Assembly: GCA_039028935.1 (NCBI GenBank)
Contig: JBCCHD010000027.1
Span: forward strand, 1-47,674
From: Pseudomonadota bacterium
GTDB lineage: Bacteria > Pseudomonadota > Gammaproteobacteria > Steroidobacterales > SZUA-146
Reading direction: 5' to 3'
DNA length: 47,674 nucleotides
Below the pieces are notes generated by a model. It was not told where the DNA came from, ran no database searches, and saw only the letters and a list, made by a program, of their open reading frames with translations. Positions 43,673 to 47,674 of this stretch are shown here, piece by piece. The translations under genes and the position numbers were made by a program. How positions within the stretch are numbered: position 1 is the first letter of the stretch; the number at the start of each line of letters is the position of its first letter.

Positions 43673-44626
43673 CTAGAGGGACGCGAGCCACTCGTCGTCG
43701 GATCCCTCCGCGATATCTTCGAACAAAAACGTGCTCATATACCGCTCCCCGGTATCGGGCAACATCGCCACAATCACGCTTCCTTCCGGCGCATCGTTAG
43801 CCACCTTGAGCGCGGCGCACAATGTGCCCCCAGCCGAAACGCCCACTAAGATCCCCTCACGTCGCCCCAGTTCGAGCGATGTATCGCGAGACTCGTCATC
43901 ACCGACCAACACAATCGAATCGACCACCGAACGATCAAGCACAGACGGCAAAAAATCCGGCGTCCAGCCTTGGATTTTGTGCGGCTGCCATTCGTTGCCT
44001 GACAGCATAGCGGCCCCCTCCGGCTCAGTAGCCACAATCTGAATCGACGGTCGAGCTGCTTTGAGTGCCGCGCCGGCGCCACTCACCGTACCCCCAGTAC
44101 CCCAACCGCTCACAAAGTAATCGAGACGTTCACCGGCAAAATCACTGAGAATCTCAGGCCCCGTCGTGCTCGCGTGGTACGCGGGATTCGCCGGATTATC
44201 AAACTGCTCAGCCCAATACCAGCCGTGCTGTTCCGCCAGTTCCCGTGCCTTTCTAACCATACCCGAGCCGCGCTCGGCGGCCGGAGTGAGAATCACCTTG
44301 GCGCCCAGCGCACGCATAATACGACGCCGTTCAACCGAGAACGATTCCGCCATAACGGCGACAAACGGGTAGCCCCTCGCTGCACACACCATAGCCAATG
44401 CAATGCCGGTGTTTCCGGAGGTGGCTTCGACCACCGTCTGTCCGGGTGTCAGCACACCTCTTGCCTCGGCGTCTTTAATGATCGCAATGGCGAGGCGATC
44501 CTTGACCGACGCCATCGGATTGAACGATTCCACCTTGACGTAAAGATCGACGTGGTCGGGCGCCATGTGATTGAGTCGGACCACCGGCGTGCGGCCAATG
44601 GTGTCGACGATGCTTGCGTATTTCAT
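43673..44626 (-). CDS. Cysteine synthase (O-acetylserine sulfhydrylase), CysK/CysM family
   Basis: PLP enzyme of cysteine synthesis. The 317 residues have GRTPVVRLN near the N-terminus, the PLP lysine Lys42 in NPMASVKDR, the substrate-binding VEATSGNTGIALA and phosphate-binding GTGGTVSGAGAAL. The PLP-lysine block differs from the more usual NP(G/S)xSVKDR, and the pattern does not settle CysK versus CysM. GGGAG precedes ATG 44626. Alternative substrates (thiosulfate, phosphoserine) are possible. Confidence 0.92.
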   Translation of the reverse strand: MKYASIVDTIGRTPVVRLNHMAPDHVDLYVKVESFNPMASVKDRLAIAIIKDAEARGVLTPGQTVVEATSGNTGIALAMVCAARGYPFVAVMAESFSVERRRIMRALGAKVILTPAAERGSGMVRKARELAEQHGWYWAEQFDNPANPAYHASTTGPEILSDFAGERLDYFVSGWGTGGTVSGAGAALKAARPSIQIVATEPEGAAMLSGNEWQPHKIQGWTPDFLPSVLDRSVVDSIVLVGDDESRDTSLELGRREGILVGVSAGGTLCAALKVANDAPEGSVIVAMLPDTGERYMSTFLFEDIAEGSDDEWLASL

Positions 44627-44685: not shown

Positions 44686-46449
44686 TCAGTTAGCGGCAAA
44701 CGGGGCTGGCTCAGGCGCTTTACGTTCCGGCGCGAACAGCTTTAGAAACGATCCAAACGCCAGTGCATTGCCCACTGGAAAATCAAAATCGGTTGCGAGT
44801 GCTGCCACCACATTGCGTTTGCCGCCCAATAATCGCTTAAGCGACATTTCGTCGGTGTGAACCTCAATGTCAGCTCCCTCCAACGCACTTTTTTTCACTT
44901 CGAGTACTCCTCGCCGCACCCATAACGACCACCACTGTTCCGTGTCGGTAAAAAATAGGTTTACTTTGATTTCGGTCTCCAGCACGTCCTCAGCGCGCAA
45001 GTTGACGCTCAGTGAGTCAAACAGCGTCGTCATTGGTAGTTGGGCGAGCAGCACTTCAGAGGACGTATCGAGCGGCGTGAAGCGAACGCCGTCACGCAGC
45101 TCCAGTGCGCTACTCAGATAGTACTGGCGCTCATTGGGATTGGAGGCATTCTGCCCGCGTGCGATCAACGCCCGAACGCGTGCTGACCGGGCAGCCTCGT
45201 GAGTCGGATCGAGGCGCAGCACATGATCGCTGAGCTCCAGCACCCATTGGTGTTCCCCGCGCTCATCGGCGTTGGCCAGTGCCGTCGTCAGCGCATCAAA
45301 ACCACCGGCAAGCGCCTGAACGTGTTGCGCACGTTCAAGGGGTGGCAGGGGCCGCAGCGTTGAGGGGTTACCATCAAACCAACCCAAGTTACCGGCATAA
45401 ACGGCTTTGACTGACCATTCGATCTTGCCATAGAGCTCTCGCAGATACGGCGACTTAGCCAAATGAGGGGGTAGTTCGATTGCGGCGACCGCTTCATCGG
45501 GCGTATAGCCCTGGTTCATGTAGCGCACGGTTTGATCGTACACAAAACGAATCGCGTCGCGATAATCCGTCAGAATCTGCAAACTGTGTTCGCGCCCTTT
45601 AATCGCACTACCGTGACTGGGCACTAACAGATCCACGGGCAGCGAGCGCGCCAGGTCTAGGCTATTCGCCCATTGCTTGACCGAGCGATGCGGCGTGCCG
45701 CGAATCGTGTAGAGATTCGGGAACGCGCGATATAAGTTGTCACCGACCGCCAGCAAGCCCATAGATTCAATCCAAACAAATAGTTGATCATTGGTTTCAC
45801 CCGGCGCATGCAGAAGACGAATCTCTAGCCCCGCCACGGTCGCCAGCAACGTATCGCTGAACGTACGCGTGGGTTCGATAAAGCCAAAGTCACTCTCCTC
45901 ATTAATGCGCAGACTAATCCCAATACCGTCGTTCTGTGCGCCACGATCAAGCTTCGTGCCAAACATGCGATAGGAGCGCGCGCTGATAATCGGCCGAAAC
46001 TCACTCACGATACGATGCACGTAATAGGCAGTAGTCTCGTGGCCAAATACCTCGACAGGGCGGCCCGGATGCGCCAATACATCAACAAACGACTGCGCGC
46101 CAAAAACATGATCGGCGTGGTTGTGGGTATAAATAATTGCCGCGAGGGGCTTATCGCTCAACGCACGAAAGCGATTGGCGACCTCAAGGCCGGCCTCGAG
46201 CGTCTCCATCGTGTCGATCACGATTAGCCCATCGGTCCCTTCGATCAAAATGGAGTTGGCCAGCCCAAATCCCACCGCAACCCATACCCCGTCGGCCACC
46301 TGCTCGACACGCTGACGAAATTCATGCGTGAGTTCGCGCATCGCCTCATCGTCCGGCGTGTCGGCGGCAACCGGCTCGGTATCCGGGGAACCACAGCTTG
46401 TCAGGAACAACAGTAACGACAGTAACCAATAGGAGTAAGTGGTGTGCAT
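44686..46449 (-). CDS. Metallo-beta-lactamase-fold lipoprotein, alkylsulfatase-like
   Basis: An envelope lipoprotein of 587 residues: signal segment about 7-18, lipobox LTSC with Cys19 and Gly next, consistent with an outer-membrane lipoprotein. The MBL domain has the zinc motif THNHADHVFG (His109, His111, Asp113, His114) and a later LVPSHGSAI. The middle, from about residue 310, carries the alkylsulfatase dimerisation pattern (TVRYMNQGYTPDEA), and the C-terminal 120 residues look like the SCP2-like domain of SdsA/BDS1. Sulfate-ester or other hydrolysis is inferred only. AAGGCG precedes the ATG, and a small secreted protein is transcribed before it. Confidence 0.85.
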   Translation of the reverse strand: MHTTYSYWLLSLLLFLTSCGSPDTEPVAADTPDDEAMRELTHEFRQRVEQVADGVWVAVGFGLANSILIEGTDGLIVIDTMETLEAGLEVANRFRALSDKPLAAIIYTHNHADHVFGAQSFVDVLAHPGRPVEVFGHETTAYYVHRIVSEFRPIISARSYRMFGTKLDRGAQNDGIGISLRINEESDFGFIEPTRTFSDTLLATVAGLEIRLLHAPGETNDQLFVWIESMGLLAVGDNLYRAFPNLYTIRGTPHRSVKQWANSLDLARSLPVDLLVPSHGSAIKGREHSLQILTDYRDAIRFVYDQTVRYMNQGYTPDEAVAAIELPPHLAKSPYLRELYGKIEWSVKAVYAGNLGWFDGNPSTLRPLPPLERAQHVQALAGGFDALTTALANADERGEHQWVLELSDHVLRLDPTHEAARSARVRALIARGQNASNPNERQYYLSSALELRDGVRFTPLDTSSEVLLAQLPMTTLFDSLSVNLRAEDVLETEIKVNLFFTDTEQWWSLWVRRGVLEVKKSALEGADIEVHTDEMSLKRLLGGKRNVVAALATDFDFPVGNALAFGSFLKLFAPERKAPEPAPFAAN

Positions 46450-47301: not shown

Positions 47302-47330
47302 TTGACAACTTTGCCGCTTAAGGCAATAGT
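47302..47330 (+). promoter_or_regulatory. Candidate sigma-70 promoter of the 65-codon gene
   Basis: A perfect TTGACA (47302-47307) is followed after exactly 17 bases by AATAGT (47325-47330; 4 of 6 matches). The transcript would start near 47337 and give a leader of about 108 bases before the ATG at 47445. Confidence 0.5.
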
Positions 47331-47444
47331 GCGCAGCCTTCGCGGCCTAGGGCCACGAATTGAGGTTAATTTATGACAATTGTTGATGCCATACTTTGCA
47401 AACGGTAAAGGAACGTTTGGAGAGGACATTAAAAGGAGAACGAC

Positions 47445-47642
47445 ATGGCCAAAAAGAAGCGGCCGCCTCGCTTGAGCGGGCCGCGAAATACACTTCACAA
47501 CCATCCGCTGTTACGTAAAGGCGGCCAACATCAAACCAGCACCAAAGCCAAACGACGTTTGGACAAGGTCAACCTGAAACGGGAGTGGCCACAGGTAAAG
47601 ACACCCTCTTTACCTGTGGCCATTTTCGTTGACGGCCACTGA
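47445..47642 (+). CDS. Small basic protein on a predicted nonstop mRNA; candidate ribosome-rescue factor
   Basis: A 65-codon frame with AAGGAG seven bases before ATG 47445. The protein is strongly basic (about a quarter Lys or Arg), with KKKRPPR near the start, HNHPLLRKGGQHQTS in the middle (GGQ at 26-28) and KAKRRLDKVNLKREW after it. Codons 48-59 lie in a perfect inverted repeat followed by TTTT, upstream of the only stop codon (47640-47642). If this is an active terminator, most mRNA would lack a stop and be a tmRNA substrate, as for arfA in E. coli and brfA in Bacillus. The sequence does not resemble ArfA's GKGSY block. Function is inferred from layout only. Confidence 0.75.
   Translation: MAKKKRPPRLSGPRNTLHNHPLLRKGGQHQTSTKAKRRLDKVNLKREWPQVKTPSLPVAIFVDGH
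47586..47626 (+). terminator. Intrinsic terminator inside the coding sequence of the 65-codon gene
   Basis: Left arm 47586-47600 and right arm 47608-47622 pair perfectly over 15 bp with a 7-base loop (ACACCCT), followed by TTTT (47623-47626). The stem starts at Trp48 and ends at Ile60, 17 bases before the TGA stop. It is the strongest stem-loop I see in the window after the ahcY terminator, and no gene follows it before the window ends. Confidence 0.85.
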
Positions 47643-47674
47643 CCCAATACCGGGCATTCGTCCTTATTACCCGG

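Follow-up and report, generated by a model that had tools for sequence, protein, structure and literature searches.

The 65-codon gene at the 3' end of the window (the whole stretch of DNA analysed here, 47,674 nucleotides of a gammaproteobacterial contig) probably encodes a small basic backup rescue factor of an undescribed family, which would be expressed from a nonstop mRNA repressed by tmRNA and would often be coupled to RNA repair. The anatomy of the gene predicts a nonstop message under tmRNA control, as for arfA and brfA. A coding-internal terminator or RNase III stem, a small basic protein and a tmRNA gene in the same genome are all present for the window gene, the role of RNase III being putative. 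The features of the locus are collected in Table 1.

Table 1. Positions of the window gene and its elements, with examples of gene X from related loci.
Feature	Position	Strand	Basis or remark
Predicted promoter-like element TTGACA-17-AATAGT (10/12)	47302..47330	+	One site versus a shuffle mean of 0.2
Shine-Dalgarno sequence AAGGAG	47433..47438	+	Sequence; counterpart AAAGGAG ahead of the ATG of L005
65-codon gene, stop included	47445..47642	+	Sequence and homologues
Codons 1-48, conserved basic part MAKKKRPPRLSGPRNTLHNHPLLRKGGQHQTSTKAKRRLDKVNLKREW	47445..47588	+	Alignments
24-pair stem-loop within the reading frame	47578..47630	+	RNA folding; perfect 15-bp core 47586-47600 / 47608-47622
Codons 49-65, non-conserved tail PQVKTPSLPVAIFVDGH, predicted to be lost from the nonstop message	47589..47639	+	Little conservation in alignments
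TTTT after the perfect stem, possible transcript end	47623..47626	+	T-run TTTTCGTT, scored -27.9 kcal/mol; absent in L005
Gene X, example	L093:1996-2937		
Gene X, example	L037:551-1495		
Gene X, example	L039:483-1427		

An earlier note on this DNA had described a perfect 15-bp stem, a 7-base loop and TTTT placed 17 bases before the only stop codon of a 65-codon gene with a good ribosome-binding site. Sequence and folding agree with this description: the codons run from 47445 to 47639, the sole stop read from the sequence is the TGA at 47640-47642, the 7-nt loop occupies 47601-47607, and the perfect stem ends 17 nt ahead of the TGA. When folded, the stem comprises 24 pairs around a 5-nt loop with a stability of -39.6 kcal/mol, which none of 200 dinucleotide shuffles reached (mean -16.96, sd 2.88; z -7.86). 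Its 5' perfect arm begins exactly at the first base of codon W48, near the end of protein conservation. The T-run is short and weak and able to pair with the 5' arm, and a stricter consensus terminator scan of the window found three sites on the minus strand and none on the plus strand. A stem of 24 pairs would be long enough to make it a candidate RNase III substrate.

As the contig stops 32 nt past the TGA, so does the window. Its last 169 nt (47506-47674) are overlapped at 93% identity by the end of a second contig from this assembly (C8 of G000); in that copy the 3' arm is disrupted and a TAA lies in frame, and the differences are concentrated in the hairpin and beyond it. The two contig ends probably represent one locus, as alleles or through an assembly error. 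In L005, the relative from a second genome of the genus (65% protein identity to the window gene), the same palindrome recurs mid-contig, differing in its loop and in one G-U pair, which makes it improbable that the hairpin arose as an artefact of the contig end. The stem is kept in this nearest relative of the window gene, but the T-run is absent there. Since the T-run of the window is weak, L005 has none and the stem is long, RNase III cutting may be commoner than termination, or even the main route, in the clade of the window.

The upstream region of L005 also carries a promoter-like sequence, TTGACT-17-GATAGT. The product of the window gene is a very basic protein of 65 residues. Its AlphaFold2 model (mean pLDDT 75, pTM 0.36) shows residues 1-32 without secondary structure and a single helix at residues 33-52; the predicted helix lies in the basic C-terminal half and may be compared with the charged C-terminal tails which other rescue factors place in the mRNA channel, as described in the part of PMC6299226 available to us. 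The genome that harbours the gene has a tmRNA gene (233 bits) and no match to the ArfA model PF03889, and tmRNA was above the cut-off in 32 of the 38 family genomes, one of these being a partial match only. Elsewhere in the window, the minus-strand gene at 44686-46449 is predicted to encode an alkyl-sulfatase-type protein of the metallo-beta-lactamase fold (PF14863, PF00753, PF14864), and a cysK-like gene (43673-44626) adjoins it.

Relatives of the gene were sought at several depths. Five of 59 related genomes matched at E <= 0.01, one of these weakly; a four-sequence profile at the same threshold matched 19 of 296 genomes of the order and 29 of 369 of the class, some of these matches being weak and later dropped, and a 33-sequence profile at E <= 0.001 matched 28 of the 369 genomes of the class. 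A short peptide pattern run against named genomes matched 190 stretches, of which 153 are relatives; the best 80 were used. The final set of 104 distinct genes was obtained from the 38 loci of our own sample and these best 80 of the 153 named relatives (118 together), minus identical ends. Rows L008, L011, L021-L027, L054 and L056 were dropped as weak, L057-L084 are repeats of genes already counted (L083, a weak hit, and L084, the C8 contig end, are among them), and neither L085, a second copy in G549, nor the C8 copy enters the counts. The family is scattered through gamma- and betaproteobacteria; the matches listed include Thiocystis, Thiorhodococcus, Thiomargarita, Microbulbifer, Pseudoteredinibacter, Alcanivorax, Ketobacter and Psychrobacter among the former, and Vogesella, Aquitalea and a Nitrosomonas MAG among the latter. 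Alignments give a core of approximately RNPxAxxPLLRKGGxHxKSxxxxR followed by a basic stretch. Single-linkage clustering at 60% amino-acid identity yields 30 clusters, with a T-run member in 9 and an rtcB-linked member in 14, a tally that corrects poorly for relatedness because one cluster holds 59 genes.

Pfam, NCBIfam and PHROGs gave no convincing match among the 38 members scanned. The NCBIfam match of one of these 38 members to the StcA family (E 0.0086, 16.5 bits versus a cut-off of 50) was taken as chance, and seven scattered weak PHROGs families, matching at most three of the 38 members (best 0.0011), were ignored. No PDB chain was matched by two family profiles at E <= 10; the BrfA complex was presumably present in the set searched, and ArfA chains were likewise unmatched, and short profiles miss distant relatives. 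Searches by tblastn with single queries, which are weak tests, found no match to L014 in the plasmid collection and none to L039 in the phage collection, so that a phage or plasmid origin is unsupported by these two scans. In a literature search at title and abstract level, with most subscription papers and bioRxiv outside its scope, no description of the family was found. A divergent member, L046 (G310, C10:46579-46644), and the tmRNA gene at C10:46044-46405, on the opposite strand, are about 170 nt apart, an interesting neighbourhood for a rescue factor.

We scored as in-frame terminators those hairpins of dG <= -14 kcal/mol which are followed by a T-run and start before the stop codon. By this measure, 36 of the 104 genes have one (38 at -10 and 43 at -6), versus 1.3 on average, and 3 at most, in 20 rounds of dinucleotide shuffling at -14. 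As related genes make these counts dependent, it should be added that 31 distinct stem-loop windows underlie the 36. Neighbouring open frames were used as a further control; these were mechanical frames of at least 130 codons, unannotated, with tail lengths drawn from the distribution of the family. A terminator before the stop was present in 6 of 298 such frames at -14 and in 21 of 298 at -10, and 59 of the 298 had a terminator (-10 or better) within 120 nt past the stop. The order is reversed in the family, in which terminators lying before the stop outnumber those found only after it by 36 to 3 at -14 and by 38 to 5 at -10.

A second scan looked for strong uninterrupted stems with the T-run disregarded, and found them at z < -3 in 44 and at z < -2 in 52 of the 104 genes. 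Among the 67 genes lacking a T-run terminator at -12, 16 have a stem at z < -3. The check proposed in the earlier note, whether a hairpin precedes the stop in each homologue, gives 53 of 104 genes that have a T-run terminator or a stem at z < -3 and 51 in which neither a T-run terminator (-14) nor a strong stem was detected in frame; homologues with no hairpin, which the earlier note had named as evidence against its reading, therefore make up about half of the family. In L006, L093 and L107, the stop comes shortly after the core, and in L013-L020, which belong to the order of the window, there is no in-frame terminator and a significant stem occurs only in L014. Strong stems with no T-run were found in L005, L164 and L168, and by eye L030 has a long interrupted stem. 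Several Microbulbifer species have a hairpin (CGCGGGAG...CTCCCGCG) that shares sequence with the codons of the conserved REW motif. Among L156, L165, L166, L171 and L139-L145, which include Microbulbifer genes, the hairpin is followed in some by a T-run, and in others the stem is followed almost immediately by a TGA.

Comparison of close relatives shows that the stem is nearly invariant, the sequence past the stem diverges, and the position of the stop often shifts. The Neisseriales genes and L104/L109 retain the T-run, and L047/L099/L149 do so with small changes; some Pseudoteredinibacter (L163) and Microbulbifer (L166) genes have an altered T-run or none, and that of Aquitalea is weak. The stop moves in L047/L099/L149, in L104/L109, in Pseudoteredinibacter, in Microbulbifer and in one of the five Neisseriales genes, and is fixed in the other four and in the Aquitalea genes, save for a two-codon gap in one of these. 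The nonstop-mRNA reading of the earlier note gains from these comparisons, as it does from the excess of in-frame terminators over shuffles and from the tmRNA gene of the genome itself.

The linkage to rtcB, of which the earlier note made no mention, is the main new fact. Using tblastn with RtcB proteins, rtcB was found beside 56 of the 104 genes and always on the same strand: directly upstream in 29 (about 2-244 nt), upstream with another gene, here called gene X, in between in 19, and downstream in 8, of which 7 are in Thiocystis, Thiorhodococcus or Imhoffiella. Fifty of the 56 linked rtcB genes are full length, three run off the end of the locus sequence and three are fragments. The latter belong to L047, L048 and L112, where only a C-terminal rtcB fragment is present, in L112 in frame with the small gene; either rtcB was lost with the small gene retained, or these are assembly errors. 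The flank examined at the remaining 48 loci, which covers less than 2 kb upstream in 27 of them, yielded no rtcB, and at 14 loci without detected rtcB no clear recurring neighbour was seen by eye. The window gene has no rtcB adjacent to it, and the rtcB of its genome lies on contig C3. At the level of genomes, rtcB was found in 23 of the 38 that carry the family and was not detected in 15. In-frame terminators and rtcB linkage are uncorrelated (21 linked and 15 unlinked genes with a terminator versus 35 and 33 without; Fisher p 0.54). Three linked RtcB proteins scanned with NCBIfam fell below the cut-off of TIGR03073, which we take, by its name release_rtcB, to be a model tied to release factor H.

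Gene X has about 315 codons and is present in 24 loci, in 19 of which it separates rtcB from the small gene; in L030, a short piece of it lies ahead of rtcB. No match was obtained with Pfam for five copies or with NCBIfam for three, nor with Foldseek at E <= 0.001. A structural model with a mean pLDDT of 84 aligned in VIA-align 2 with GNAT acetyltransferases (Z 9.8, rmsd 3.8, 125 aligned residues), and on this model we tentatively consider the fold to be GNAT-like.

Taken with the known rescue circuits, these observations suggest the following mechanism. The mRNA would normally end within the coding sequence, because transcription terminates intrinsically at the hairpin and T-run or because RNase III cuts the long stem, and a transcript ended there would lack a stop codon. 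The product of the window gene would then keep its conserved part and lose the tail past approximately residue 50-60. As long as trans-translation works, tmRNA would tag this product of about 50-60 residues, leading to its degradation; once tmRNA is overwhelmed or absent, the untagged product would accumulate, bind ribosomes stalled on broken mRNAs, its own message included, and recruit or assist a release factor in freeing them. From the circuit, the size and charge of the protein and the link to RtcB, we infer rescue activity for the family. Since the gene stands beside rtcB on the same strand in many species, the two may be co-transcribed, and ribosome release would be co-produced with the resealing of cleaved RNA. 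The fuller version, to which we give slightly less than even weight, is an undescribed and widely scattered proteobacterial family of release-factor-recruiting rescue proteins encoded by nonstop mRNAs and switched on only when trans-translation fails, which would form a rescue-and-reseal module together with RtcB and, in certain lineages, a GNAT-like protein: the small protein would free ribosomes on cut RNA and the ligase would mend the RNA.

The closest parallels to this circuit are arfA and brfA. The arfA mRNA is described as nonstop, a stem-loop either ending transcription or being cut by RNase III, and its product is kept low by trans-translation; full-length E. coli ArfA carries a hydrophobic, unstable tail, with which codons 49-65 of the window gene may be compared (PMC8012679, seen in part). 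Likeness to ArfA (E. coli YhdL; PF03889) extends to the small basic protein and the in-frame stem-loop ahead of the stop, and as three of six ArfA genes have an in-frame terminator under identical scoring, versus 36 of 104 here, the family resembles ArfA in this rate. However, it lacks the KGKGSY block and is often located beside rtcB. The earlier note had remarked on the absence of an ArfA-like block, and its suggested profile comparison returned no detectable homology, in line with that view: PF03889 matched none of the 38 members at E <= 0.1, and hhalign of the family against ArfA gave a probability of 0.45% and a score of 10.05 versus a shuffle mean of 7.7, with 8 of 100 shuffles as good. 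ArfA homology is therefore unsupported. In brfA, an intrinsic terminator inside the coding sequence gives a nonstop mRNA and BrfA is repressed by trans-translation; BrfA (Bacillus YqkK) is likewise a small, RF2-dependent rescue factor (PMC6881298, seen in part), but it is a Bacillus protein and has N-terminal helices.

In sequence, the RKGGxHxKSK stretch of the family resembles a motif of Francisella ArfT. PF10685 (KGG), which we take to be the Pfam model of GsiB repeats, matched no member of the family and, at E <= 0.01, none of the 38 genomes that carry it, versus 4 of 14 control genomes, leaving a KGG or ArfT-like assignment unsupported at the profile level. ArfT contains a KKGGSTNKK stretch and recruits RF1 or RF2; a comparison with nine published ArfT residues provides a lead, and, unlike the family, arfT has no terminator ahead of its stop, according to the part of PMC6299226 available to us. 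Burroughs and Aravind apparently placed ArfT in a broad GsiB-related family, and the same paper argues that release-factor/ligase pairs arise from toxin attack on ribosomes (PMC6514570, in excerpt). Such a pair is RtcB2-PrfH, in which PrfH, coupled to RtcB2, protects E. coli against colicin E3 (PMC9223846, in excerpt); the likeness lies in an RNA ligase gene paired with a ribosome-release protein, putative in the family, where rtcB is adjacent and co-directional in 56 of 104 loci and not at the window locus. PrfH is a release-factor homologue, whereas the small family protein has no convincing Pfam or NCBIfam domain, and no RF-1 domain was found in it by these scans.

Concerning other backups, Proteobacteria are not known to have the RqcH pathway, and the distribution of ArfA is patchy. 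A survey of gammaproteobacterial genomes lists arfA in 699 of 2,704 and arfB in 2,027 of 2,704 (PMC11633108, Table 1, seen in part), so many carriers of the family may have ArfB as another backup. In our evenly drawn sample of the class, ArfA was found in 6 of 369 genomes and the family in 28 with no overlap, which proves nothing as the expected overlap is only about 0.5. Anecdotally, the four genomes of a small taxonomic family include one with this gene and two different ones with ArfA; the fourth, 79% complete, is without this gene and was outside the ArfA search.

Three other explanations have to be weighed against a backup rescue factor. The message could be nonstop and tmRNA-controlled as proposed, with the protein being a partner of RtcB (activator, substrate adaptor or RNA chaperone) that is needed only when trans-translation is saturated. 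The adjacency of rtcB in 56 of 104 loci, the lack of detectable ArfA homology or of any member matching PF10685, and the precedent of a small partner beside rtcB in Archease operons (PMC3973293, in excerpt) would all fit such a protein. We nevertheless regard it as improbable, given that no rtcB was found in the flank at 48 of 104 loci nor detected in 15 of 38 genomes, that three loci retain only an rtcB fragment, and that coding-internal terminators are described for ribosome-rescue factors (PMC6881298, PMC8012679, both seen in part).

Somewhat less credible is that this is an ordinary small gene with a stop-coded message, its hairpin being a terminator that overlaps the 3' end of a non-conserved tail by chance, with readthrough as the usual outcome or a truncated product of no special fate. 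The tail is indeed non-conserved, the T-run of the window is weak, and about half of the members have no in-frame hairpin, so that, judging from these 51, a stop-containing message can yield the protein. Chance overlap would hardly account, however, for 36 of 104 terminators before the stop and 3 only after it (-14), when 6 of 298 neighbouring frames have one before the stop, and where the stop moves, the shift lies beyond the conserved hairpin. That the hairpin is an attenuator or another cis-regulatory RNA, such as a protein-binding site or an mRNA-stability element, and no nonstop device, seems to us very unlikely. Strong stems with no T-run in several members (L005, L164, L168) and the interrupted long stem seen by eye in L030 could be read in this manner, but the stem sequences differ between groups (31 distinct windows of 36) while position and T-run recur, which is more easily reconciled with termination or RNase III cutting than with a specific ligand site.

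If the reading as a backup rescue factor is true, the family would represent another independent origin of backup rescue under tmRNA repression, and its linkage to rtcB would tie the rescue of nonstop ribosomes to repair by an RNA ligase. The in-frame terminator would then offer a simple feature by which further factors of this kind could be found computationally.
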